Part shown: one piece after another, positions 1 to 49,424 of the stretch
How the letters are laid out: every line of letters begins with the position of its first letter
Position numbering within the stretch: position 1 is the first letter of the stretch
From: Telmatactis stephensoni
Taxonomy: Eukaryota; Cnidaria; Anthozoa; Actiniaria; Isophelliidae
Assembly (NCBI GenBank): GCA_029948255.1
Contig: JALIZF010001691.1
Coordinates: 1 to 64,000 of the forward strand
DNA: 64,000 nucleotides
Reading direction: 5' to 3'
Position numbers and translations under genes: made by a program
Notes under the pieces: generated by a model
The model's input: the letters and a program-made list of their open reading frames with translations, nothing else
The model's database searches: none
Told to the model about the DNA's origin: nothing

Positions 1-3000
1 AAAAATGGCCCAAAATCGACCAAAAGCAAAGGCTATAGCCCATGCAAAATCATCAAAAATGGCCCAAAATCGACAAAATGCAAAGGCTATAGCCCATGCA
101 AAATCATCAAAAATGGCCCAAAATTGACCAAAATTAAAGGCTATAGCCGATGCAAAATCATCAAAAATGGCCCAAAATCGACCAAAAGTAAAGGCTATAG
201 CCCATGCAAAATCATCAAAAATGGCCCAAAATCGACAAAATGCAAAGGCTATAGCCCATGCAAAATGCGCAAAAATGGCCCAAAATTGACAAAAAGCAAA
301 GGCTATAGCCCATGCAAAATGCGCAAAAATGGCCCAAAATCTACCAAAAGCAAAGGCTATAGCCCATGCAAAATCATCAAAAATGGCCCAAAATCGACAA
401 AATGCAAAGGCTATAGCCCATGCAAAATCATCAAAAATGGCCCAAAATCGACAAAATGCAAAGGCTATAGCCCATGCAAAATGCGCAAAAATGGCCCAAA
501 ATCGACAAAAAGCAAAGGCTATAGCCCATGCAAAATGCATCAAAAATGGCCCAAAATCGACAAAATGCAAAGGCTATAGCCCATGCAAAATGCGCAAAAA
601 TGGCCCAAAATCGACCAAAAGCAAGGCTTATACCCATGCAAAATCATCAAAAATGGCCCAAAATCGACAAAATGCAAAGGCTATAGCCCATGCAAAATCA
701 TCAAAATGGCCCAAAATCGGACAAAATGCCAAAGGCTATAGCCCATGCAAAATGCTCAAAAATGGCCCAAAATCGACAAAATGCAAAGGCTATAGCCCAT
801 GCAAAATCATCAAAAATGGCCCAAAATCGACAAAAAGCAAAGGCTATAGCCCATGCAAAATGCGCAAAAATGGCCTAAAATCGACAAAATGCAAAGGCTA
901 TAGCCCATGCAAAATCATCAAAAATGGCCCAAAATTGACCAAAAGCAAAGGCTATAGCCGATGCAAAATCATCAAAAATGGCCCAAAATCGACAAAATGC
1001 AAAGGCTATAGCCCATGCAAAATGCGCAAAAATGGCCCAAAATCGACAAAAAGCAAAGGCTATAGCCGATGCAAAATCATCAAAAAAGGCCCAAAATCGA
1101 CCAAAAGCAAAGGCTATAGCCCATGCAAAATCATCAAGAATGGCCCAAAATCGACAAAAAGCAAAGGCTATAGCCCATGCAAAATCATCAAAAATGGCCC
1201 AAAATCGACAAAATGCAAAGGCTATAGCCCATGCAAAATGCGCAAAAATGGCCCAAAATCGACAAAATGCAAAGGCTATAGCCCATGCAAAATCATCAAA
1301 AATGGCCCAAAATCGACCAAAAGCAAAGGCTATAGCCCATGCAAAATCATCAAAAATGGCCCAAAATCGACAAAATGCAAAGGCTATAGCCCATGCAAAA
1401 TGCGCAAAAATGGCCCAAAATCGACCAAAAGCAAAGGCTATAGCCCATGCAAAATCATCAAAAATGGCCTAAAATCGACAAAATGCAAAGGCTATAGCCC
1501 ATGCAAAATGCGCAAAAATGGCCCAAAATCGACAAAAAGCAAAGGCTATAGCCCATGCAAAATCATCAAAAATGGCCCAAAATCGACAAAAGCAAAGGCT
1601 ATAGCCCATGCAAAATGCGCAAAAATGGCCCAAAATCGACCAAAAGCAAAGGCTATAGCCCATGCAAAATCATCAAAAATGGCCCAAAATCGACAAAAAG
1701 CAAAGGCTATAGCCCATGCAAAATCATCAAAAATGGCCCAAAATCGACAAAATGCAAAGGCTATAGCCCATGCAAAATGCGCAAAAATGGCCCAAAATCG
1801 ACAAAATGCAAAGGCTATAGCCCATGCAAAATCATCAAAAATGGCCCAAAATTGACAAAAAGCAAAGGCTATAGCCCATGCAAAATGCGCAAAAATGGCC
1901 CAAAATCGACAAAATGCAAAGGCTATAGCCCATGCAAAATGCGCAAAAATGGCCCAAAATCGACCAAAAGCAAAGGCTATAGCCCATGCAAAAATCATCA
2001 AAATGGCCCAAAATCGACAAAATGCAAAGGCTATAGCCCATGCAAAATCATCAAAAATGGCCCAAAATGGACCAAAAGCAAAGGCTATAGCCGATGCAAA
2101 ATCATCAAAAATGGCCCAAAATCGACCAAAAGCAAAGGCTATAGCCCATGCAAAATCATCAAAAATGGCCCAAAATCGACAAAATGCAAAGGCTATAGCC
2201 CATGCAAAATCATCAAAAATGGCCCAAAATCGACCAAAAGCAAAGGCTATAGCCCATGCAAAATCATCAAAAATGGCCCAAAATCGACCAAAAGCAAAGG
2301 CTATAGCCCATGCAAAATCATCAAAAATGGCCCAAAATCGATAAAAAGGAAAGGCTATAGCCCATGCAAAATCATCAAAAATGGCCCAAAATCGACCAAA
2401 AGCAAAGGCTATAGCCCATGCAAAATCATCAAAAATGGCCCAAAATCGACCAAAAGCAAAGGCTATAGCCCATGCAAAATCATCAAAAATGGCCCAAAAT
2501 CGACAAAATGCAAAGGCTATAGCCCATGCAAAATGCGCAAAAATGGCCCAAAATCGACAAAATGCAAAGGCTATAGCCATGCAAAATGCATCAAAAATGG
2601 CCCAAAATCGACCAAAAGCAAAGGCTATAGCCCATGCAAAATCATCAAAAATGGCCCAAAATCGACAAAATGCAAAGGCTATAGCCCATGCAAAATGCAG
2701 CAAAAATGGCCCAAAATCGGACAAAATGCAAAGGCTATAGCCCATGCAAAATGCAGCAAAAATGGCCCAAAATCGACAAAATGCAAAGGCTATAGCCCAT
2801 GCAAAATGCATCAAAAATGGCCCAAAATCGACAAAATGCAAAGGCTATAGCCCATGCAAAATGCGCAAAAATGGCCCAAAATCGACAAAATGCAAAGGCT
2901 ATAGCCCATGCAAAATCATCAAAAATGGCCCAAAATCGACCAAAAGCAAAGGCTATAGCCCATGCAAAATCATCAAAAATGGCCCAAAATCGACAAAATG

Positions 3001-5150
3001 CAAAGGCTATAGCCCATGCAAAATCAGCAAAAATGGCCCAAAATCGACAAAAGCAAAGGCTATAGCCGATGCAAAATCATCAAAAATGGCCCAAAATCGA
3101 CAAAATGCAAAGGCTATAGCCCATGCAAAATGCGCAAAAATGGCCCAAAATCGACCAAAAGCAAAAGCTATAGCCCATGCAAAATCATCAAAAATGGCCT
3201 AAAATCGACAAAATGCAAAGGCTATAGCCCACGCAAAATGCGCAAAAATGGCCCAAAATCGACAAAAACCAAAGGCTATAGCCGATGCAAAATCATCAAA
3301 AATGGCCCAAAATCGACCAAAAGCAAAGGCTATAGCCCATGCAAAAACATCAAAAATGGCCCAAAATCGATAAAATGCAAAGGCTATAGCCCATGCAAAA
3401 TCATCAAAAATGGCCCAAAATCGACCAAAAGCAAAGGCTATAGCCCATGCAAAATCATCAAAAATGGCCCAAAATCGACCAAAAGCAAAGGCTATAGCCC
3501 ATGCAAAAACATCAAAAATGGCCCAAAATCGATAAAATGCAAAGGCTATAGCCCATGCAAAATGCGCAAAAATGGCCCAAAATTGACAAAAAGCAAAGGC
3601 TATAGCCCATGGAAAATGCGCAAAAATGACCCAAAATCTACCAAAAGCAAAGGCTATAGCCCATGCAAAATCATCAAAAATGGCCCAAAATCGACCAAAA
3701 GCAAAGGCTATAGCCCATGCAAAATCATCAAAAATGGCCCAAAATCGATAAAATGCAAAGGCTATAGCCCATGCAAAATCATCAAAAATGGCCCAAAATC
3801 GACCAAAAGCAAAGGCTATAGCCCATGCAAAATCATCAAAAATGGCCCAAAATCGACAAAATGCAAAGGCTATAGCCCATGCAAAATGCGCAAAAATGGC
3901 CCAAAATTGACAAAAAGCAAAGTCTATAGCCCATGCAAAATGCGCAAAAATGACCCAAAACCTACCAAAAGCAAAGGCTATAGCCCATGCAAAATCATCA
4001 AAAATGGCCCAAAATCGACCAAAAGCAAAGGCTATAGCCCATGCAAAATCATCAAAAATGGCCCAAAATCGACAAAATGCAAAGGCTATAGCCCATGCAA
4101 AATGCGCAAAAATGGCCCAAAATCGACAAAATGCAAAGGCTATAGCCCATGCAAAATCATCAAAAATGGCCCAAAATCGACCAAATGCAAAGGCTATAGC
4201 CCATACAAAATCATCAAAAATGGCCCAAAATCGACCAAATGCAAAGGCTATATATAGCCCATGCAAAATGCGCAAAAATGGCCCAAAATCGACAAAATGC
4301 AAAGGCTATAGCCCATGCAAAATGCGCAAAAATGGCCCAAAATCGACAAAATCCAAAGGCTATAGCCCATGCAAAATGCGCAAAAAGGCCCAAAATCGAC
4401 CAAAAGCAAAGGGTATAGCCCATGCAAAATCATCAAAAATGGCCCAAAATCGAGAAAATGCAAAGGCTATAGCCCATGCAAAATGCGCAAAAATGGCCCA
4501 AAATCGACAAAAAGCAAAGGCTATAGCCTATGCAAAATCATCAAAAATGGCCCAAAATTGACCAAAAGCAAAGGCTATAGCACATGCAAAATCATCAAAA
4601 ATGGCCCAAAATCGACAAAATGCAAAGGCTATAGCCCATGCAAAATGCGCAAAAATGGCCCAAAATCGACAAAATGAAAAGCTATATTCCTTCAAAAATG
4701 CACAGAAATGGCCCAAAATGGACAAAATGCAAATACTATAGCTGGACATGCAAAATGGTCAAAAATGGCCCAAAATCGACAAAATGAAAGGGCTATAGTC
4801 GATGAAAAATGCGCAAAAATGGCCCAAAATCGACAAAATGCAAAGGCTATAGCCCATGCAAAATGGTCAAAAATGGCCCAAAATCGACAAAATGAAAGGG
4901 CTATATTCCTTCAAAAATGCACAGAAATGGCCCAAAATGGACAAAATGCAAATTCTATAGCTCGACATGCAATGGTGAAAAATGGCCCAAAATCGACAAA
5001 ATGAAGGGGCTATAGTCGATCAAAAATGCGCAAAAATGGCCCAAAATCGACAAAATGCAAAGGCTATAGCCCATGCAAAATGCGCAAAAATGGCCCAAAA
5101 TCGAAACAATACAAAGGCTATAGCCCATGCAATGTGTAGTGAAATGAGAA
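1..5150. repeat. 54-bp satellite array
   Basis: About 95 head-to-tail copies of a 54-bp unit. Each unit carries the perfect 10-bp palindrome GGCTATAGCC and the core ATGGCCCAAAATCGAC. Two positions vary between discrete states: CGACCAAAAGC, CGACAAAATGC or CGACAAAAAGC in one place, and AATCATC or AATGCGC in the other. Because 54 is 18 codons and the unit has no stop in several frames, long open frames run on both strands. They are repeat artefacts with 18-residue periodicity, not genes. Units are near-identical to about 4670 and more diverged after that. The array continues off the left edge. Confidence 0.97.
4680..5070. repeat. Higher-order repeat at satellite edge
   Basis: At the right edge the 54-bp units are diverged and arranged in a longer period of about 219 bp, roughly four units. 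The distinctive stretch GCTATATTCCTTCAAAAATG occurs at 4681 and again about 219 bp later. Each time it is followed by the same order of variant units (TGGACATGC or TCGACATGC type, then GTCGAT type). Confidence 0.75.
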
Positions 5151-36100: not shown

Positions 36101-39100
36101 GTATAAGTAAGTATGACTTCATTAAAAGCCTAAAAACCTATCCTGCAGTCTCTGACACCTTAATTATCACGATATTACAATGTAGGCAAATTTAGCATAA
36201 TATTATATAATATGTTGGGCAAATTTATATATATGTAACAAGACATGAGGGTGCATTAATTTAAATAAGATGACAAATAACAATTTTAATCTATTGTTAC
36301 ATTAATTGTTATTTATTTGTGTTTGTTTTTCCGGTAGTGCTGGACAAGACACAGCGTGCCATTACAGAGACTGAGCTTTGGTCTTGTTACTTGATTCGTA
36401 AAGCAGTGTGGGTGTTCAGGATGGCAGCAAAACCATGTGTGTTATCAATGCAACAAATTACTAATATTGCTAATGCGTAAGTTAACCAATTGGATATAGT
36501 GTAGAGTAAATATACTTGTAAAGCATGTTTAAAATAGCAACATGACAATGATAATTTGCTATTTTAGGCACACAATGATTGTTTTTGTTAACATATCATT
36601 AACTGCCATCTGTACTAAATTATGAAGGTGACATTCTATACCCTTCAATCAACAACCAAGTTTTCTGACTCACTATTAGTCCATCTTAAGAGTTATGATA
36701 ACTCTAATGCTATAACAAGATGGACTAATGAGTTGAAAAATGAAAGAAAACGAATGGATGGAAGGTCAATTGATTGACTTCAGTCTATTTTTCTATGTTT
36801 TTCAGGATTCTAGAGTATTTGCCAGTAATAGAGAAAACAGGCATAGAGTTTATGGATCAGTTACTAGCCATGATACATGTTATGATAAACACCTACAAGG
36901 ACAGACATCAAGTACACCACAGGTATACCATACACTAGTGTATTTCTATTATACAAGACACCATGTGATGGACAGACAGACAGATGCCCTCCTACTGGAC
37001 AGAGACCTACGTATATATATATACATTGTAGTCCAGGAAAATGGTGCAGAATTGTTCAAATTTGTGTATTAAACAAGCATGAAAATTGGCACACTGATAG
37101 AGGTTTATGTCTTTGATGGACAAGTCTAGCTATAAGACAGACATGAGTGACCTCTTTATGGCATTTTTAGATCTAAACATATCTTATTTTTGTTACATGT
37201 ACAGTAATATTGTTAATGGACAGACAATTTTGCTGTAATTATTAATAATAGAATTTAACCATTGGTTAACTGTTTGATATTTGATGTCCAGGAGATATGC
37301 TATCATGGCAACAAGCCCAAAGCAAAAGCCATTAACCATATCACAAGCAACAATACAAGAAGGTAAAGAATTAAGGTAGCTCACTATAGTTTAGTGTGTG
37401 CATGCCTAAAGATCATGAGCATGCATGCATAACACTGAAACTTATGCAGAATTTTTATTTGTCTGATGTCATGTCATACAGTTGATCTTTTGGAGCAAAA
37501 ATCTCCAAAACTAATGGTAAAATCCTTTCTTTAAAATGAGTACAATAATAGTGAGTACCTTAACCCTTTCGCTCCTACAGCGCCCGAAACCGGCCGTCAA
37601 AATTCTACTCGTCTAAAAAATTACTTCTTCCTAAAAAAGGACAACTCATACTCAACTTTGGTACGAAAGTAAAGTCTAGTAAATGAGCCAAGTTTTGAAA
37701 ATCAAACATTGTGAAACAACTGGCGATTTCTGCAGAAATTTGTCATTTCAAGGCAAGGAAAGGAAAAAATCACCATTTTGGGCTCAAGTTTTCATCCTTG
37801 AAAATCACACATTTTGGACCTCAATTTTTCTCAACAAATTATCCTTTCCTGCACACGAAACAGCATTAACAACCAAATTCAGTCCTAGTCTTGTGTTCTC
37901 ATGGACTTTTTGGCCTTCTTTTCCTTTCACGGACACAGCTGCGGCTGATTCATTGTGGCCATTTTGCAAGCACGTGTTTTGGGACTTTTACGACCTAAAT
38001 GCATTCTGGGTAATTCAGCTCCTACGCGACAGCCAAAGCCCTTCCCTCCATCTTTTAGAGTTTTTAGTCAAGTCTCGAGCCCCCTCGGAATTCTGCCCAA
38101 ATTTCGCGCTTGCTGTGTTCCTTAATCGTCACAACTCCCAAAAAATGCCATGGCAGGTCCGAGAAATTGCCCTTGGACGAGCTTCAAAGCACACTTCGTC
38201 TTGGCGCCACTCAAAATTCACCCAGTCAAAGCTACGAGCCAAAATGCCTACGAAGTGTTACACCTTGACGAATTCTTACGGCAAGTAAGCTCTCTGCTAC
38301 TTCCAGGCTTAATGATACCCAGCCAGTTGACCAAAGGCGAAAAAAGGCTCGAAAATTCACAGAAATCCAAGTTTTCTGGACTTTCAAACGCCACCATGAC
38401 TTGACCAAAAACGCGACCGCTTCAAACTGGTTTCAACCGGTTAACTTGAGCCCTCAATAGTACAAAACAGCAGAAGTTTCTATGGTTACTCCAGTAAGCA
38501 GGCGAAAAAATACACAAATTGATTATGACCTCAAAATCGCGTAAAAACCTCAAAAATCCCCAGTAGCGAAAGGGTTAAATAGATAGAGCCATTCTAACTG
38601 TCCATTAAAAGAGCCTCTATAAGGTAGTTCCTTTGAAATAGAAAGAGAAATGTCATTTTCCCCAGATTTTGTGTAGCTGCTCTTTAAACCATAGACATTT
38701 AGTAGTCTCATATTCCCCAAGGTTCTACCACAAGGGTAGGGGTGGGTGCCACTCCTATCTCAACTTTTACTCCAGCAATACTAGTACTCATTTATACAGC
38801 TGAGTAGTGTCATATTCCCAAACTTAAGGTTCTACCACAAGGGTAGGGGTGGGTCCCACTCCTGTCCCAACTTTACCCCAGCAATGCTGGTACTCATTAT
38901 TTTATACAGCTGAGCAGACAATAAAGTGTCTTACTTAAGGACTCAAACAGTTATTTGCAGTTTTGACCTGAGCTCAATAACTAACCTAACACTTGTTTGT
39001 TTTTTAATAGCATCCATTGAGCTCATCCCAAAATTGAGAGAAGAAACAGCACACTATGAATGTACAGCCCACCATAAACCACCCGCACCATGCGATTCGT

Positions 39101-39426
39101 CCAGCGACCATGAGTCTGTACCTGAAAACAGTGACGACATTGAAGTTATCAATGATGACAGTTTCCATAGCAACACGTCCGATTATGACATATGTGAGCA
39201 AAGTCTGTACATGTCTTATAGCATGGTAAAAAAACACACCGTGTCTGACGAGCAGCTTGAGATAACGCTGGGACAGTGGGAGTCTGAGGGAGGGGCGTGT
39301 CCCCTGAGATCACAGAGTAACTCTGATGCGGACTACATCATACTCGATGGTTATGATACAGATATTGAATCCATTAGTAGCGATAATGGTGAAGAGATGT
39401 TTTCTTCTTTAGAGAGTAGTATGTAA
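30107..39426 (+). CDS. ATGL/PNPLA2-type patatin-like lipase
   Basis: Predicted triacylglycerol lipase of the lipid droplet. Exons: 30107-30523, 32769-32834, 33469-33742, 35834-36106, 36338-36476, 36806-36922, 37292-37362, 39011-39426. All borders are GT-AG and phases join without error to 590 codons plus stop. Patatin domain (about 6-180): glycine-rich [13 protein letters not shown] (oxyanion loop), nucleophile elbow GGTSAGA with Ser46, and [12 protein letters not shown] with catalytic Asp165, at the positions expected for animal [20 protein letters not shown] and [15 protein letters not shown] are hallmarks of the PNPLA2/3 group. A Ser/acidic-rich linker spans about residues 285-340, then a conserved helical part (about 343-430), then an acidic C-terminal tail. 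The start ATG follows GAAAAA and heads the patatin fold. Introns contain a splice-donor minisatellite, tandem repeats and a piggyBac-like element. Two small exons could still be missing, but the frame needs none. Confidence 0.94.
30524..32768 (+). other. Lipase intron 1
   Basis: 2.2 kb AT-rich intron with GTAAGA donor and TTTCTTTAG acceptor. The only structure seen is a hairpin at 32415-32451. The open frame at 31765-32070 has no support. Confidence 0.85.
32415..32451. repeat. 14-bp stem hairpin
   Basis: GTTTAGTCTGGACA, nine-base loop, TGTCCAGACTAAAC: a perfect stem within lipase intron 1. Confidence 0.85.
32826..33212 (+). repeat. 48-bp minisatellite repeating the exon-2 splice donor
   Basis: Eight copies of a 48-bp unit overlap the end of lipase exon 2. 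Each unit contains GAGGAGTG followed by a donor: GT at 32835, 32883, 32931, 32979, 33027, 33075, 33123 and 33171. Five read GTAAGTGC, two GTAAGCGC and one GTAGGTGC. The unit is 16 codons, open in the lipase frame, and the frame stays open past the last donor. Use of donor n would add 16 x (n-1) hydrophobic residues between residues 161 and 162. Confidence 0.95.
35276..35480 (+). repeat. Tandem repeat, about 57 bp x 3-4
   Basis: Unit TTTGGCAAATTTCACATGCC then TTTTCATACACATTTCAC and GTTTCAGGATATC, in lipase intron 3. Diverged TTTCACAT-rich sequence continues to about 35640. Confidence 0.9.
37564..38574. mobile_element. Non-autonomous piggyBac-like element
   Basis: 1011 bp flanked by TTAA on both sides (37560-37563 and 38575-38578). 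The ends are CCCTTTCGCTCCTACAGCG and the inverted CCCCAGTAGCGAAAGGG. TTAA targets and CCCTTT ends are characteristic of piggyBac. A 201-codon plus frame (37683-38288) shows no transposase motif and is probably fortuitous. Inserted in lipase intron 7. Confidence 0.85.
38705..38918 (+). repeat. Two-copy tandem duplication, about 110 bp
   Basis: CATATTCCC, GGTTCTACCACAAGGGTAGG, CCACTCCT and TACAGCTGAG(T/C)AG occur in the same order at 38709-38808 and 38812-38915, about 90% alike, in lipase intron 7. Confidence 0.9.
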
Positions 39427-39623
39427 TTATATATAGATACGAATCGTAAAGGGTGGTGAGAGGTCCTCCAAAAACCTCAGGGACTCACAAAGTCAAATTT
39501 GATCGGTCTTGAAGTCTCATTTTGTTAAGGTACTTGGACTGCCTAAAAATGGTCTCATTTGATCAAAATTACTTTAGAATTAATACTAAACCCTGATAAA
39601 AACTATTCTTCATATTAATATTC

Positions 39624-39629
39624 AATAAA
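39624..39629 (+). terminator. Candidate poly(A) signal of lipase gene
   Basis: AATAAA about 200 bp after the lipase stop, followed by T-rich sequence. Other AATAAA-like hexamers lie farther downstream (near 39870). Confidence 0.4.
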
Positions 39630-39649
39630 TATCCTTCAGAAATATTTGT

Positions 39650-39780
39650 TCAAAGGTGCGATATTTCACACCTGAGGTGTCAAAATTGGACAGGGAATCC
39701 AAGGCATTATTTCAGAAAAAGTGCAATATCTGAACTCGAAATAAAATTTTGAAGCATTTAATATTGCACCTTTAAACTAC
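39650..39780. mobile_element. Small MITE-like foldback
   Basis: AAAGGTGCGATATTTC at the left and the inverted AATATTGCACCTTT at the right, with TTAA at the right border. The end resembles the AAGGTACGAAG/AGGGTGCGAAG end of the MITE at 7907, so it may belong to the same TTAA-targeting group. Confidence 0.55.
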
Positions 39781-39796
39781 TTCACATAAGTAGCAA

Positions 39797-39910
39797 AAAC
39801 TAAGCAGCCCCCATCAAAATGTGTAAATCGGTGTCTTCAAGTGCGTTCTTTGCTACGGTGGCTGTAAAATAAAATCTGAATGCCTTAGTGCTGGGGGCTG
39901 CTTAAAACTT
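39797..39910. repeat. Inverted repeat, about 110 bp
   Basis: TAAGCAGCCCCCATCA mirrored by GTGCTGGGGGCTGCTTA. A small foldback in the space between the lipase and the MBD-transposase gene. Confidence 0.65.
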
Positions 39911-40191
39911 TATTTATAAGGCCTGCTTTATCTTTGTGCAAAATTACAAAAAGATCTGTTACATACTGATTGAATTATTGATGAAAGCGTTTTCATTTCA
40001 GCCATTTTCTATGTTTAAAGGACGATAATTCGGGCTAGAATTGTTATTCTTCGCCAAAATAGCCGCCATCTTGTATCCCATACTGCATTACACAATACTT
40101 CACGAAATTACAACGATTCAAGCACGGAAAGCCACGAGTATCCTCGGAAACGTGCTCTCCATTGTTTTCGTGATGTTTGCTCTAAAAACAA

Positions 40192-40210
40192 TTACGTCAT
40201 CCATAGCAAC
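40192..40210 (+). promoter_or_regulatory. CRE-like and X-box-like overlap
   Basis: TTACGTCA (CRE-like) overlaps GTCATCCATAGCAAC, one mismatch from the RFX X-box pattern GTNRCC-spacer-RGYAAC, about 170 bp upstream of the MBD-transposase ATG. This could mark its promoter. Confidence 0.35.
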
Positions 40211-40374
40211 GGCTAAGAGCGCATGCCCAAAATCGTGAAACACGAAGCCACCAAATATCCGAAGTATTGTTCAAGAGTTTATCGAAATATTTGTATCTAA
40301 AGTCGTATATATTCATAGTTTTCTTCTAAATTTTCCATAAAATAGCATTCTTTATAGTGCTTTGTATTTGAAAT

Positions 40375-43300
40375 ATGCAAAGTAGAAAAGCACATCTTGC
40401 TCGTGGACTTGGATCTTCTTCTCGTCTTCCATTTTCGAATGACGATCTTGAAGTGCGTGGTTGGAAAGTTGAAAAGCTTCCTAAAGGATTCAAATGGACT
40501 GAGCCGACTGGAAAAAGAAGTTTTAAATCATCAAAAGCTGTTGCTGAATTCCTGGAAAGCCAGGAAGCGGCATCAAGTGAAAGCGAGTACGAGCCAACGA
40601 CCAGTGATGACTGCCAAAGTTCCCCTATAAAGAGCAGCTTCTCAGGCTTCTCACAGACTCATGCCACTGGAAATAGCAATCCAAAACGGTAATTTATAAA
40701 GAAAGAGTTGAAACTACTACTTATAATTAATGTAATATAACTTACTTTGATACTTTTATGATAGTTTGAAACTGGAAACAAAAATACAAGCCGTAAAGCT
40801 TCCCAGTAAATACCACATCACCATGACTACTCAACTGCAAACATTAATCGAAGAGATCAATGAGACACGAAGCTGCTCCATTGTCGAGGGATGCGAAGGT
40901 AGGGTACAGTAAACGTTTATATCGTACTTATATTTGGATTCTTGGGTTTTTGATTGCTTTTACCCTATCGCATGGAATTTTCAGCTAGAAAATATTGACT
41001 CCATTATCCAAATAAAAGTTAGGAGCCAAAAGAATGAATTTGCTTATTACTACAACATGAAACACTGACTTGAGTTCTAGACTTTAAATAATTGTTGTGT
41101 TGAAAAGGAAACTTTTATCAAATGGTAGTGACCAGTTTTTTATCCACCAGGAGACTGTGATTTGCTTGTATGTGTATATAAACTTCAGCTCAAAGGAAAA
41201 CTTATTGAATATTTGAATTCCAAAATGGAACTTGCTATAATTGCTAATCTACAAAAACACTGTGAAATATGTAGAATAAACAAATTCACAGTTAAAATTT
41301 TTGTCCTCTTGTCAAATTTACTTTGTATTGCTGTCATAGAAATAGCAGAATATCTCTCTTTCCACTAAAAAGATCCCATACAATATACTTTTCTTGATGG
41401 GGTTTTGCAAGAATGGTGTTACATTTATTTTCTAATTGTCATAGAAGTAGCAAAACATATCCTCATTCCAGAAATAATATCCCATTCAGTATATTTTTCT
41501 TGATGTGCTTTTGCAAGGATGTTATTACCACAACATGTTGCCAATGTTTCTGCATTTGTGAATTTGTGAATCAAAGATATTTTAACAAAAAAAATATACA
41601 AACAAGTGAAGTGATTGCAACATTTCGATTGTACATAACATCTACAGCTGTTCTTGAAAAGGTTGTCAAGATAAAAAGACATTTAGTCATTAATAAACTC
41701 ATTTGCATATATCACATTTTCAATAGTGATGCTTCATGTGAACTAAGCCGTTATCATTCATGTGCAAACCAGAGGGTGAGTAGCTGTTTTTGCAAAGCAA
41801 CTTGTGAAATGTCCTTGTGAAAATGGTTGGCACATCAGCATTGCAATTCGCTTGTTAGTAAACATGAAGTATCGCTATATTCTGTCAAGAATGCTAAACT
41901 TTAGCTGCAAAACTATTTTATAAAATATGTGATATGCAATGTACTTTAGTATTATAAATTGCTGAACGAAAATCAGTTTGCAAATGAGTATATTTATTAC
42001 TAAATTTATTTTTATCTGGACAACCTTTTCAAGAATGGCTGTATGTTTCATAACCAATGAATAATCATATAGACTAGCCCAATTGACATTTAGTGAGTGT
42101 TGCCTAATGATCTATTGAAATGCATGATTGCATAAAGAACACGCAATAGATGTCCTCCAGCATGGCAGCACCATATTCTTTGTAAATATTGAGCATATAA
42201 AATCACTTATATCTCTGCAATAAATACTTGGTTCAGCTCAAATTCCAGAGTTACAGACTTTTAATTCGACTTTTACATGAAAGTAATTCTATTTTATGCA
42301 CCAGCTGTGAAACCCTTTGTTGGAAACTGTTGGTGCCCGTGGAGCAATAGAAACATGAATTAAATTTTGTCATACATTTCTTACTGAAAAAATAGCTTAT
42401 CATATCGCTAATATCTTTGTAAAAAATACTTGTTTTAGTTAAAAATGTTGTGGAGCTACATAGTTTTGCTTGCTGTTTCACTTGGATATACTTGAATTTT
42501 GTTTAGGACTAAAATAATTTTCGATGACTTAGAATTCCCTTTCCCCCCCATGTCATTGAATAACTCGTTAACATTTGCCTGTTGTTAAAGATTCAAATCT
42601 CAAAAACACGAAGCTGATCATATAATTGGAAAATTGACAAAAATGAGTTCTTCTAATACGTGCCTACTTGTTTGACTATCAATGATCGACTGGTTTTCCA
42701 CGTGAAGAAAAAGGCATTGTGCTAGGAAATAACTTTGCATTATGGGATAGCAAGAACAAAGAAATCTGTTGTTTTTTCCTCACTCGCTAAGCATTGTGGT
42801 TGTATTCGAATCTCGATATTAGTTAGCTACTGAAATAGAGATGCTGCCTTGCTCCATTCATTCAGGCTCACCCTGCTGCGGTAGCAAAAATGCACTTGGT
42901 TCTTTTAGTTTATAGATAAGTGGGTGCGTTGTTCACATGAGTATCTCTTTTTCTAGGTAAACTACTTCCAGTAAAGATACATGAACTTGGTCTTGGTGGA
43001 GCAGTGAAAATACTTTTTGCTTGCTCTGGCTGTGGAACACAGATTAACTATGCAAGTAGTGAAGTGTGTATGCTTTATCGACGCCGTAACTGTGTTTCTT
43101 TGGCGACAGCATTATGCTTTCTCATATATGGCCAGGGGTATCCCACCTACTACAAAGTCCTCAAGCTTGGCCTTGGAATTGATGTTCTTGCAAAGAGCAA
43201 TTTCTATAAGGTAATAGAAATTGCATACCCTCATGTAAAGACTGTTCTAGATGAAATGTGCGATATAGCAAAGAACAAAATGAAAGCACGTGATCCCTCT

Positions 43301-45562
43301 AAACTTGGAAGCTGGCAAAGAGCCGTAACAACGTCTGATGGCTGCTGGCTTATACGTGGATTTCACAGCCAGTGTGCCACATTTGCAATTATCGACTTCC
43401 TGACTGGAGGAATTTTGTATTATGGACACCTCTGCATGAGAGGAAGTAATAACATTTGTGATGCTGACCTATGGGAGGGTACTTCCAAGGCTGCTGAAGG
43501 CCACTTGGCCTACGTTCTCTTTCAAAAAGCTAAAGATGATGGAATGGCCATTGAAATCAACTGGCAGGACCAGGACTCCACTTCCAGCCAATCATTTAGA
43601 AGTGTATTCCCAGATGGTGACCTCCACAGAGTGATGTTATGTGGTGGTCATGTGGGCAGGTCACATGGAAATAACCTCAAAGAATACATGAAGAAGAAAA
43701 TAATTGAAAAGGGGTTTATAGATAAGCATGGCAAGACCTACCCACAGCTGAATAATGTGAAGTGTGTCTGCTCTGGCAAAAAGCATTCAAAGACCTGTGG
43801 CTGCTTGAAGGAGAACTTTATAGCTGCTGCCAAGCGTAATCACTTTTCAGCACTGAAGCAGTGTGGCAATGATCCTGCTGAGTATGCCAGAAGAATGGAG
43901 GTCCTTGGGAGATATCACAGTCGTGATATCCACTCCTGGGTAAATGATGAGGGTGAAAATGAGGAATGTGGTTTTCACCCATTGACAGTATGTTCTTGTG
44001 GAGAGTGTGGAAAAGAAAGTCAAAATGAAGTGAGAGATGCCAATGAAGAGTGCAGTGAGGAGGAAGGTTGTAGTGTGGAAGATAATAGTGGAGAAAGTGG
44101 ACAGGTTGGCAGTGCTAACTGTGATGAGATTGTAGATTGTGGTAGCGATGGTAATTGTTCTGATGGTTATGATAGAAGTAATAGTTCGACCGGCAGTGAT
44201 GTCGAGAGTGATGTTGATAGTGATGATGATAGCGACGAAGGTAGTAATGATGAGGGTGATGATGATGGTGATAACGACGAAGGTAGTAATGATGAGAGTG
44301 ATGATGATAGCATTGAAGATAGTGATGATGATGGTGATAGTGAAGATTTGAGATGTAGTGGAAAGCCGTACAAAACTAGACTTGTTCTAACATGCCCCCT
44401 TCATGCCCTACTCTACGAGATCGAGTGTGGTAGGGTTGCGGATAAAGCCAAGGAGGTGATCCACTCTGAAATGGGACGTGGCCATTCAAATTTGCCAGAG
44501 AGCAAATTCCACGTGCTCACAAGATTCCGACCAAAGAACGTCAATCTGCATCAACTGCATTACGAATTTTCAACAAATGCTGGTCTTTGTCAGAGTAATA
44601 TGACATTTATGTATAAAACAGTTGGCAGTAAATATCACTGGATGAGGGAATTACTGCTGGGCATGGGATTGCCAATTCCTGATGGAATTGAAGAAATATG
44701 GATGGGAGAAAATGAGCGACGGATGAAAGGTCTCAAACAGCAGCAAACAGACAAAGCAAAAACAGCCCGTGCAAAGAGGAAACAGAAACGACTTCAAGAA
44801 AGCAGAGAAAGGTAGGGATATGTTTAGCATGAAACAAGTATCACCATGATGCAACAGTTCAATCCATCTTTATTTTCATCTGTCCAGTCTATCCAGTTGT
44901 AATTAAAATGTTATTCAAAATATTTCTCAAATTAGCTGTTACATATGTAACATTTTTGTAAAGTTTGGGTCAATTCAGTACCAATGCCTCAAGAGAGCAG
45001 GTGGACAGAGTTTTACAAGGGAGTAGCGCATGGCTGTTGAGTTTTGCGGCAAAAAGTAGTTGAACACTGCTTGGAAAATTCAACTTACAATAATTGTACA
45101 GACTCCATGTTATTTTCCCCATACTGTATATACTGTAGAAGTATATGTAGTATATATAAAGCAGCAGTGATTTGTCAAGGATAAAAACCCAAGTCATGTG
45201 CAGCAGATATAGACACTCACAATTTTCATTGTTTGTATTATGAATTGCAACTGCAGTTGCTGATTTAAATCATTTATTTCTATTGTAGGGGTAAATTTAG
45301 CAGGAGGCAAAAGATCATCCACAGTTATGGAGATGGAAATGATGACGACATTGATGAGGAGGAAGCAATAGAGAAAGTCACTAAAGAAAGAAAACAAAGA
45401 CCTTCAGAAGTTGGAAGTATAGAGGTTAATCCACCAAAAGGTGCTAGAGTTAATATTGGGAACAATATGCCAGTCAAACAATGTAGATGTGGCAGCAACA
45501 CACATTCTAGAGTAACAAACAAGGCATGCAAATTTTATAAACCTAGGAAAGTGGTTAGATGA
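40375..45562 (+). CDS. MBD-like domain fused to Mutator-like DDE transposase
   Basis: Four exons with GT-AG borders and perfect phase: 40375-40688, 40765-40898, 42957-44811, 45289-45562; 858 codons, no internal stop. Residues about 24-62 (GWKVEKLPKGFKWTEPTGKR, then SF.S...VAEFLES) match the methyl-CpG-binding domain pattern (GW, then P.GKRF.S...V..FL). Residues about 168-440 resemble a Mutator-like/Kolobok-type transposase core: CSGCGTQINY, TSDGCWLIRGFHSQC (Asp277), INWQDQDSTSS (Asp354 or Asp356), CGGHVGRSHGNNLK (His381), then a Cys/His cluster CVCSGKKHSKTCGC (419-432) and FHPLTVCSCGECG. An Asp/Ser/Gly-rich acidic stretch follows (about 505-620), then a conserved block with HSNLPESKFHVLTRFRPKNV. 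The C-terminus ends in a zinc knuckle CRCGSNTHSRVTNKAC. No terminal inverted repeats were found, so it may be an intact transposon whose ends I missed or a domesticated gene. Probably nuclear. I cannot name the third catalytic acid. Confidence 0.82.
40899..42956 (+). other. MBD-transposase intron 2
   Basis: 2.06 kb intron between GTAGGG and TTTTTCTAG. From 41170 to 42480 it holds several diverged blocks with ATTCTTGAAAAGGTTGT, GAAACACTGTGAAAT and similar words in both orientations, suggesting old repeats. The open frames here (for example 41413-41820) lack motifs. Confidence 0.7.
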
Positions 45563-46148
45563 ATGTTTGCGGTAGAATTATTTTGTGTTCTCTTTGTGAA
45601 AATAGATCAATAATGATAAAACTATTTTATAGTCAGTGTATTTGTAGACCAAAACATGGCAGTTGAGTTTATGACTGACATTGCTCGAGCTTTTTGAAAG
45701 AAAGTGAAATCTTATAAAATTAGATTTCAAAATTACATTCATAAGATATTATTTATTAAAAAAATAATCTTTTCACTCTACTCAGGTGATTTTACATCAT
45801 ATTTGAAGCAATAAGTAAACATTCAAGTACACAATAATTTAGTCTGTAGGCTTTGTCCTCTTTGAAATTTATTACCTTAGTAATCACCACTGTTCTTGTT
45901 CTTTTTTGATTATTCAAAATCAGTTAGCATTGCTTCATATCAAAATCTAAAGATGATATGCACAGAACTACAACTACAAATATACAAAAGTTCTCTAGTT
46001 GTTCTCATGAGCAAATATTAATTTTTATTTCATGATGCTGAATATAGTAAGCAATGATCTGCAATAAGTACTGCAATAATGCAACCACAAAAGAAAGACA
46101 AAACAGGTTGATTGCAATCAATGTAGTTGTCACAAGTCAACCAAGAAT
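45563..46148. other. No recognised gene
   Basis: AT-rich 3' flank of the MBD-transposase gene. No obvious AATAAA close to the stop and no terminal repeat pairing with the 5' side was seen. Confidence 0.45.
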
Positions 46149-46325
46149 AATAGACCACTTCAGCTTCGTTGTTTGTTTACCCATTTCAGACCACATGATG
46201 GCACTCTTGGGTGTTAATTCTTTCACATGAAATATTTTAACACGTTCTTCATAAAAGAACAATTCCCAAGAGAATGTCACGTGGTCTGAAATGGGCAATT
46301 TGCATACGAAGCTAAAGAGGTCCAT
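46149..46325. mobile_element. 177-bp foldback MITE
   Basis: AATAGACCACTTCAGCTTCG and inner CCCATTTCAGACCACATGA at the left pair with TCACGTGGTCTGAAATGGG and CGAAGCTAAAGAGGTCCATT at the right. No coding sequence. Confidence 0.88.
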
Positions 46326-46519
46326 TGCTATGTTTTGCTATATTGCTATATTGAAATGAGTGTAGTAAGTTATTGTTAGCAATTTTATTGCCATGTAACA
46401 GCCAGTAGTAATCATTTTTGGCAAATCAACAATGCTTTATTGCAACTGGTTATTGATAACCAACACTAGTGTAATCAAAACATTTTTTACAAGCTGAAAA
46501 GGATCTTTATTAGATCATT

Positions 46520-47160
46520 ATCTTTCAGTACAAACTGTACAAACTATAAGAAATACTTTGAACAATACAATTCTGAATGTTGTATTTGACAAATGGAAGT
46601 GATTGGATTTGAATTGAACTTGCTAAATTGAACTCTATTAGTTCTCTCATTACAAACTATGAGAGATATTTTGAAACAGTATAATGATAATTCTGAATTT
46701 TGTATCTGACAAATCAATAAAAGTGATTGGATTTGAATTGAACTTGCTAAATTGAACTCTATTAGTTCTCTGTCATTACAAACTATAAGAAATATCTTGA
46801 AACAATATAATGATTCTGAATTTTGTATTTGACAAATGGAAGTGATTGGATTTGAATTGAACTTCCTAAATTGAACTCTATTAGTTTGTTCTCTGTCGTT
46901 ACAAACTATAGGGAATATCTTGAAACAGTATAACAATAGCCCATTTGCACGATGGCGTCATTTTACTACCACTACCAGAATGGTTTACGAATTTTCTTAT
47001 TCAAATTTTTATTACATCTTGAGAATAGTAGAACAATTAGCATTAATTATTTCACAAAAGAAAGTGGGCAAAGCATTCTGGTAGTGGTAGTATATGATGC
47101 CATCATGCTAGTCGCCTATTCTGAATTTTGTATTTGAGAAATGGAAGCAATAAAAATGTC
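46520..47160 (+). repeat. About 108-bp tandem repeat x 4, interrupted
   Basis: Units share ATTCTGAATTTTGTATTTG, GGATTTGAATTGAACTTGC, TAAATTGAACTCTATTAG and ACAAACTATAAGAAATA. The last unit is split by the MITE at 46935-47120 and resumes with CTGAATTTTGTATTTGAGAA. The minus-strand open frame of SLYCFKI-type repeats is an artefact. Confidence 0.92.
46935..47120. mobile_element. 186-bp foldback MITE within tandem repeat
   Basis: Left arm AATAGCCCATTTGCACGATG with TACTACCACTACCAGAATG; right arm CATTCTGGTAGTGGTAGTA to GCCTATT. Neighbouring tandem units provide the empty site. Confidence 0.88.
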
Positions 47161-47448
47161 TTAAAATATTTTAAATAGAATCTGTAGATGTGACCTTTTT
47201 TGAACATTAACAATTGTTTTGGCAAGTTCCCTCTGAATTGAGAAGCTTGAATGAGACTAGGAATAGATTTACCTGGTACACTTTTGCTTACACCTTGCCA
47301 CATAACAACAATTTGAAATATTGCAGCCTTTTGTTCTTGTTGGCCGATTGTAAGCAAGTTGTAGGGTTGTAGCATGTGACAAATTGAAATCCAAAATTGT
47401 ACCAGGTATATTTGTCTTTTAGGAAACTCCCTATTCAGTAAATTGACA

Positions 47449-48616
47449 TCATTTCTTTGATTTCTTTGGCAATGGCCAGCGTGCATGGAACAAATCTTCT
47501 AAGGTTACATGGTATACCTGGCAATAAAAATACATGGGAAATTGTGGTAATGAATAAACAAATTGAACTGAATTAAATATCCATATATATATATATATAT
47601 ATCGAGGGGGGGGGGGGGAGAGAATTGAGTATTTTGAGTCTGCAGGGAAGGTAGATATCGATTTCAGCCTTGTGTATGTTTTCATGCTTGATTAGCCAAC
47701 AAAATGGGGAAGAGTGTTCAAGAGATTTTACTTACAACTATTACCTTCAATTATTGCCACAAGACGTGTACCAGCAAAATATAATTTTGGTCAAAATGGT
47801 GAAATGTGAAGGTAAACTTTGGTCACAAGTTCACATTGAAATATAAACAGTTACTAGTCCATAATGATAATTCTTACCGATTTTGTTTGGGGATCAGCAT
47901 AGTCCCGAAGATCGTCCTCTTCGGCAACAACCCTGATGACTTTTTTGAGGCAATCAGGGAAGACATATGTTGGTGAGCGATCTCCACTGACTTTGCCCTC
48001 TCCAACATGATTTCCATACTGCAGAAACACAAAAGTCACAATTACAATGATTTCATGTAACTCGTGTTTGACATTCAAAGCGCGCGAAACTGCACACTCC
48101 ATTTGAATAATTTATCAAAACCTGGAATGACTGAATGGCTTGGTTTTATGTAAAAGCGCATTTATTTAGTGATATCATAAAGTCTAGAAAATTGAGAAAC
48201 TTTGCTAGCTTTCAACAAAGATGTGTTAGACAAAATGAACTTCCGATACAAGCTTGTTTACCACTCGAGAACTCACAGCATTCAGGGCTTCTAGTAAAGC
48301 TTCGTATGTCATAAAAATAAGAAACTGTAAACTTACCCACAGTATTCCAAAGAAACGCTTATACAAGCGTTTTCTGGCAGCTGCTGGCGATTCACTCTCT
48401 TTACGGCTAAATCCTTGAAGAATATTTTTCAAGCCATCTGGTATGCCAGCAAAACTACAACAGCAAATATAGCCAAATTGAGCGGGTGTTTGAAGCTACG
48501 ACTCAACATTTTCTTGAAATGCAGTGCTAATGAGAATTCCAATTGATAATTACTTACTCTTTCTTAACGAATTCTTCTCCGAAACAAAGAATTGCATGTT
48601 CTTTAAGCGTCTCCAT
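47449..48616 (-). CDS. Unrecognised 128-aa protein, four exons
   Basis: Exons on the minus strand: 48616-48558, 48454-48337, 48018-47878, 47517-47449. All have GT-AG borders (donors GTAAGTAA, GTAAGTTT, GTAAGAAT) and joining phases, giving 128 codons and a TGA stop. The start METLKEHAILCFGEEF is the first ATG of the frame. The rest contains a basic/Ala segment (ESPAAARKRLYKRFFGILWY), GNHVGEGKVSGDRSPTYVFP, an acidic segment (VAEEDDLRDYADP) and the C-terminal LEDLFHARWPLPKKSKK, which may be a nuclear localisation signal. I do not recognise the family. It is convergent with the MBD-transposase gene, about 1.9 kb apart. Confidence 0.72.
47580..47622. repeat. (AT)n and poly-G tract
   Basis: ATATATATATAT followed by a run of 13 G, in the last intron of the 128-aa gene. 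Confidence 0.95.
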
Positions 48617-49424
48617 TGCTTGGAAAGAACGACTGTATTGTTCGTCTTCTACTTGAAGTAGGTGCGAACTTGTCAATTCTTAGCATAACTCCACGCGTGG
48701 ATAATGACTGCTGGTCTGGAAGACGCATGCTCAGGAGATAATATTACCATGTTTCAGCTCTCAGATTTCACAAAATGGCTTCCTTGGAAACCATTTTTCG
48801 CTTTATTTTTTAAAGCAAGGACAAGACATAGACATCTAAAATCACATGAAATATGTTCAAGAAGTCCCAAATGAGCTAGGGAAACCGAGAAAAATGATAT
48901 ATTTTTTTAAAATCTGAGCCAGTTCTAATACCTTAATAAAGACAGTCAGTGAAAAAATATCTCAAGTTTGCAAAAAAAAAAACCACTTGTCTTGCAAAGT
49001 CTTGCCAGGACCTTTCACCACCCATAAACAGCAATAAGCTGATAGCCTGCATGGTAAACTCTGCGTTGGGGGGAGAGGGGTGGGAGAAGGGAATTCGAAT
49101 CTCTCTTTGTTAGCTGTGAGTGACAAATGATATAAGATGCCTAGATATTTTTAAGTAGGCGTTATCGTAAATACCTAACTAAATATCCGACTAAACTGGA
49201 CAAGCCCTGAATAGGTGTTAATATACATGGAATACAGAATGGGTCATCCATAAGTTAGACAGTTAACTTGATTGCCTGTAATTGATTATGTGGTGATTTT
49301 TTTTTTTTTTTTTTTTTTCATTTTGAATCATACCCGAAAATCGATAAACAAAATTGAGTTAACTCAAATAATTGTTGACTAACCTCATGGAAGTCAGTTT
49401 ATTATGGCTTACGGTAAATTAAAC
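48617..49424. other. Upstream of the 128-aa gene
   Basis: No gene recognised. A run of 22 T lies near 49295. The first 200 bp should hold the promoter of the minus-strand gene, but no core element stands out. Confidence 0.45.

Follow-up and report, generated by a model that had tools for sequence, protein, structure and literature searches.

What kind of gene lies between positions 40375 and 45562 of contig JALIZF010001691.1 of the sea anemone Telmatactis stephensoni, and does its N-terminal part read DNA methylation? The window analysed here is the first 64,000 nucleotides of this contig, on the forward strand (assembly GCA_029948255.1). A sequence-only reading of it had proposed a domain resembling methyl-CpG-binding domains (MBDs) joined to an intact Mutator-like transposase that could sense methylation or serve the host as a chromatin factor. 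We consider it probable that the gene is the transposase of a TTAA-flanked Kolobok-type transposon, and that its N-terminus adopts a predicted MBD/TAM fold which likely binds DNA independently of methylation.

The interval first given holds the gene, but the full unit is larger and has directly observed ends and target-site duplications:

39525–39528, no strand: left TTAA target-site duplication, present in six copies outside of which the sequence differs
39529–48932, forward strand: whole transposon, 9,404 bp, from GGTAC... to ...ATACC, with its ends aligned in six copies
48933–48936, no strand: right TTAA target-site duplication, present in six copies

The 5' junction in the window and in five other copies reads TTAA followed by GGTACTTGGACTGCC, and the 3' junction in all six reads CAGTTCTAATACC followed by TTAA. 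The terminal inverted repeat is imperfect, with 14 of the 21 outermost bases matching. In the copy on contig C118, the match to the window runs from 42958 outward to 39525 and then ends. The six copies were compared over 41459–46309 and at both ends, and the C118 and C587 copies additionally over the greater portion of the 5' part; within this scope, any pair differs by 7–29 substitutions per about 4.84 kb (window 41459–46309). The exon 3 protein is 100% identical at five of the six places, the sixth having one TAG. The element is thus present in at least six copies, whose near-identity suggests recent movement. All six 5' flanks differ from each other, as do five 3' flanks. Two copies (G000, regions C587:259197 and C252:514765) have a common 3' flank, 99.6% identical over 504 bp, and no common 5' flank, which could be explained by repeated sequence, by a rearrangement or by a join made in assembly. 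Because the C587 copy and this C252 copy (505–515 kb) have the same 3' flank, we count at least five independent insertions.

Within the element, the phase-consistent frame proposed earlier holds: 858 codons and a stop are obtained when four exons are joined in phase through GT...AG introns. All the motifs then listed are likewise present (GW, GKRSFKSS..VAEFLES, TSDGCW, INWQDQD, CGGHVGRSH, the Cys/His cluster, the acidic linker and the C-terminal knuckle). The exons and the N-terminal domain are as follows:

40375–40688, forward strand: exon 1, with an N-terminal RG.G..SR motif, the MBD/TAM-like domain and an acidic/SSP stretch; 100% identical at six genomic places
40438–40563, forward strand: MBD/TAM-like domain, residues 22–63, predicted as short helix, two strands, short bridge and helix (AlphaFold2 model, VIA-align rows)
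40765–40898, forward strand: exon 2, a linker with conserved QL..LIEEINETRSC...GCEG
42957–44811, forward strand: exon 3, with the DDE core, Cys/His cluster, acidic linker and last acidic residue
45289–45562, forward strand: exon 4, with the C-terminal CxC...H...C knuckle (45482–45529) and the stop

A protein database search returned 59 proteins, and the closest named relatives are from sea anemones (Exaiptasia, Actinia, Actinostola and Nematostella). The best match, P0001 from Exaiptasia (869 aa), shows 58% identity across 99% of the query. In a profile check of the 59 matches, the N-terminal domain was found in P0001, P0010 and P0011; the other 56 gave E values of 0.34 or worse against the N-terminal-domain profile, and many of them are partial gene calls starting inside the core. 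The match over 99% of the query in P0001 and the same N-terminus in P0010 and P0011 place the four-exon frame beyond chance. Another version of the N-terminal domain is joined to the same type of core in the Exaiptasia gene model P0060 (609 aa, LOC110234965 isoform X2). A search with residues 1–110 alone gave no matches in a mode that is insensitive, since P0001, which carries the domain, went undetected. Given the Exaiptasia models P0001 and P0060 and the recurring exon order, exons 1–2 and exon 3 appear to belong to one transcript.

The core itself is predicted to be of the RNase H-fold DDE type, and its features are:

43337–43339, forward strand: Asp277 (TSDGCW), proposed first catalytic residue, in a nearly invariant column and located on the first strand of the core in the RNase H-fold prediction (D274 of P0001)
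43568–43576, forward strand: Asp354 and Asp356 (WQDQDS), proposed region of the second catalytic residue, invariant in a 13-sequence alignment and directly following a strand
43640–43651, forward strand: CGGH, a C/DxxH signature, residues 378–381, with Cys378 and His381 nearly invariant
43763–43804, forward strand: CxC...H...CGC zinc-type cluster, residues 419–432, between CxxH and the last Glu, in nearly invariant columns
43997–44356, forward strand: long acidic linker, predicted disordered
44498–44500, forward strand: Glu664 (NLPESKF), proposed third catalytic residue, nearly invariant and in a helix of the model (E680 of P0001)

According to PMC9587614, Kolobok elements are recognised by a TTAA duplication, 5'-RR/YY-3' termini (unlike piggyBac), a C/DxxH motif and a zinc finger before the last E. 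In the Telmatactis element, the 4-bp TTAA duplication is found on both sides of all six copies, which all end in GG...CC; CGGH stands between the second D and the last E; and the zinc finger corresponds to the nearly invariant C419, C421, H426, C430 and C432, a putative metal site. The hallmarks in which the 39529–48932 element resembles the Kolobok superfamily are its TTAA duplications, its RR...YY ends and, in a core of DDE type, the C/DxxH motif and a zinc cluster ahead of the last Glu (PMC9587614; PMC6004289).

The label 'Mutator-like' survives as a profile name and not as a hallmark. Mutator (MuDR) elements make long target-site duplications of about 9 bp. Since the duplication here is TTAA only, and the ends are RR...YY, the MuDR hallmark was rejected. 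On the other side, the Pfam 'Mutator-like transposase' profile PF20700 matches P0075, a relative of the core of the distant group described below, at E 1.8e-19; the window's own protein gave no match to it at E ≤ 10 in the Pfam scan.

Where the protein departs from the superfamily is at its N-terminus. Kolobok transposases usually possess a THAP DNA-binding domain (PMC6004289), as does the Xenopus-type Kolobok (XKol), whereas the window protein gave no THAP match in the Pfam scan (E ≤ 10) and has the MBD/TAM-like domain at the usual THAP position. Accessory domains differ among the Kolobok lineages named in PMC9587614, which bear KolX, exonuclease, His-Me nuclease or RecQ; the word 'MBD' is absent from the main texts of PMC9587614 and PMC6004289. 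Among the papers listed in a literature search, with Repbase and most subscription journals outside its scope, none described a Kolobok transposase with an MBD-like domain. Since variation in accessory domains is familiar from other Kolobok lineages, we take the fusion to be a variation on a known pattern. As to accessory genes, the two longest ATG frames elsewhere in the element have 135 and 127 codons, no library search having been made of either. Other accessory domains were seen among relatives: P0056 and P0057 have an exonuclease domain (PF00929), like the KolobokD lineage of PMC9587614, and P0043, P0046, P0048, P0050 and P0055 have PHD-finger or Ulp1-type peptidase domains, located behind the core in P0043 and in the sponge protein P0055. 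Among these, a chromatin-reader domain was gained at the opposite end of the protein.

The fusion is not confined to this locus. A search for N-terminal exons similar to exon 1 of the window (E ≤ 1e-3) gave 38 rows, or 35 exons once split rows were merged, and 27 of these are followed within 12 kb on the same strand by a transposase exon, which is absent for the other 8. This pairing used 68 of 102 transposase rows, the remaining 34 being weaker or C-terminal pieces; on the contigs of the eight unpaired exons, these unused rows occur only on C1110 and C385, where none lies downstream of the exon within 12 kb. Counted from the transposase side, the N-terminal exon is present at 27 of 34 near-type loci (57% identity or more), and the seven without it (C177, C308, C33, C385, C454, C68 at 145 kb, and C855) include several fragments. 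In a more distant group (42–47% core identity), searched with a profile derived from two of its own 13 loci, the domain lies upstream at all 13 loci read, being split by a frame break in L068. In one family of this far group, three copies whose flanks differ start with TTAA followed by GGTATTTGCCCTGGC. The domain was also found at loci L017 and L018. The N-terminal exon is observed upstream of the transposase in many related families. Of 65 pairs of N-terminal exons analysed for the ratio of non-synonymous to synonymous substitution rates (dN/dS), most are nearly identical or have a saturated or high dS; in the two pairs where dS is about 0.85, with one partner in common, the ratio is 0.17 and 0.20. 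The proportion of non-synonymous differences is below that of synonymous ones in every pair except the near-identical L060–L061. From these sequence comparisons, the fusion appears general and kept across the near and far groups.

A tree of the cores places these groups in two separate clades, the far group adjoining relatives whose predicted proteins are without the domain. Forcing a single clade is rejected (p 3.2e-10), a test that cannot choose the number of gains because relatives with an unknown N-terminus are also shut out. The domain was either gained twice or gained once and lost in places, and the shared RG.G..SR motif would favour one origin. No relatives were confirmed in viral contigs.

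Is the N-terminal domain then a relative of MBDs? The best matches to its predicted fold, by VIA-align, are weak ones to MBDs, which make up 25 of the 45 chains among the matches listed. When the family profile was compared with MBDs, none of 200 column shuffles reached the observed profile–profile score; frame-broken N-termini (L053, L068) and near-duplicates (L021–L023, L033, L051, L059, L061, L067) had been excluded from the profiles. The best bridge to the Pfam MBD family PF01429 appears to be a relic at G000 contig C5:1718459-1726377, where seven rows lie about 1.29 kb apart and L085 comprises two units. Each of the two units read combines a fragment of the transposase with an N-terminal, MBD-like stretch whose loop is near-canonical in length, and this relic scores 44 bits against the near-group profile and 18.3 bits (E 0.0019) against PF01429, under the cut-off of 21 bits. 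When a profile of 18 N-termini was searched against the PDB, MBD4 chains ranked first to fourth, each individually insignificant. Neither the window's exon nor the C5 relic, each used as the only query in a PDB sequence search, gave a match at E ≤ 10.

Several results weigh against such a relationship. The window's domain gave no match to PF01429 at E ≤ 10, thus not reaching the gathering score of 21 bits, and one of four near-group members reached E 0.12, below the cut-off. Foldseek found no significant match for this domain. The VIA Z score is low, a non-MBD chain tops the ranking for the four-sequence profile, and DUF7028 outscores MBD in some members. These points are what would be expected if the N-terminus were a small beta-beta-alpha domain, for binding DNA or for interaction, whose likeness to MBDs is due to chance and not to kinship, a view that we find unlikely given the shuffle control, the MBD4 ranks and the C5 relic. 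The proposed fusion of an MBD-like N-terminus with an intact DDE transposase thus stands on predicted fold, profile and relic, as a remote relation below the Pfam cut-off.

Reading of methylation is another matter. Recognition of methyl-CpG needs four residues, R111, D121, Y123 and R133 in MeCP2 (PMC8811898). This RF1 Arg, Asp, Tyr and RF2 Arg set is kept in none of 17 sequences (8 near-group, 9 far-group). In the near group, RF1 is Lys in all eight, and RF2 is Tyr in six, Phe in one and Lys in one, the window's own. In the far group, Arg is found at RF2 in five of nine and at RF1 in three of nine, never at both, and the Asp and Tyr never occur. The near-group domain also spans 16–17 residues from Trp to Gly, against 22–23 from Trp to Pro in the MBD/TAM domains measured, so that most of loop L1 is gone. 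Both features set it apart from the MBD/TAM domains of MeCP2, MBD2, MBD4, AtMBD5/6 and BAZ2A. The loop-bearing C5 relic carries S, H, K and K at the four positions. By contrast, the full set of four contacts is present in two of the three repeats of an MBD gene that belongs to this genome, the Tyr position being Phe in the third. This gene (G000 contig C217:309010-310311; L001, L002, L004) is a 570-aa frame with three tandem MBD domains above the Pfam cut-off and presumably represents a host methyl-CpG-binding gene.

No CpG occurs in the terminal 130 bp on the 5' side of the element or in the terminal 45 bp on its 3' side, the first CpG lying 131 and 46 bp in, respectively. Given these ends and the lost contact residues, canonical methyl-CpG reading by the N-terminal domain is unlikely. 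The proposal that the transposase can read methylation, and would thereby bias insertion to favour or avoid methylated DNA or would locate methylated copies of itself, could draw on the MBD-like predicted fold and profile similarity, and on the low observed/expected CpG ratio of the element (0.49; most of the remaining window has 0.74), which might reflect its methylation over history. However, the kilobase preceding the element is equally CpG-poor (0.46) and, together with the missing residues, the missing loop and the CpG-free ends, this makes the proposal quite improbable. We hold as very doubtful the broader suggestion that a mobile Kolobok lineage recruited a chromatin-reader fold which still senses the state of DNA to choose donor or target sites, be it methylation through a non-canonical contact or its own CpG-depleted, methylated copies. 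If true, it would be a natural counterpart of the engineered MBD-Tn5 fusions of CmeCUT&Tag (PMC13385352), which likewise join a methylation-reader-type domain to a transposase but are man-made and picked to bind methylated DNA, whereas the window fusion is natural and has no contact set. Finally, the idea of a domesticated host gene retained as a chromatin factor, in spite of the long intact frame and the full-length Exaiptasia relative, is rejected with very little residual probability by the presence of six almost identical copies, all of which have both ends, are bordered by TTAA duplications and lie in differing flanks.

Some neighbouring features may be recorded. An inverted repeat of 80 bases, 81% complementary, lies within intron 2 of the element (41628–41707 and 41979–42058). 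A 170-codon open frame (38914–39426) stops about 100 bp before the insertion, and the element may thus sit just behind the last exon of a host gene. Positions 1–4000 of the window show a very strong AT skew (0.54) and a GC skew of about -0.2, which suggests a repeat array.

For the Kolobok-type transposase that we favour, Asp277, Asp354/356 and Glu664 would be the catalytic triad of a nuclease with an RNase H fold, with which the core would excise the element and insert it at TTAA. The N-terminal domain would be the DNA-binding module at the position of THAP in Xenopus-type Kolobok transposases, and might grip the element ends or the target DNA through the face of its MBD-like sheet, irrespective of methylation. 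Its closest working parallel would be the TAM domain of BAZ2A, in which the R, D, Y and R of the four methyl contacts are replaced by K, E, W and K. This TAM domain binds independently of methylation.

In two sub-lineages of elements with signs of recent mobility, a predicted MBD/TAM-fold domain thus stands in place of THAP. Since there are intact copies and their ends are known, excision and binding lend themselves to direct tests. If the proposal is true, the MBD fold would also be a transposon DNA-binding module, and these elements would reveal the behaviour of such a domain when the residues that sense methylation are missing. It also raises the question of whether some MBD-like domains of hosts came from transposons, or the reverse.

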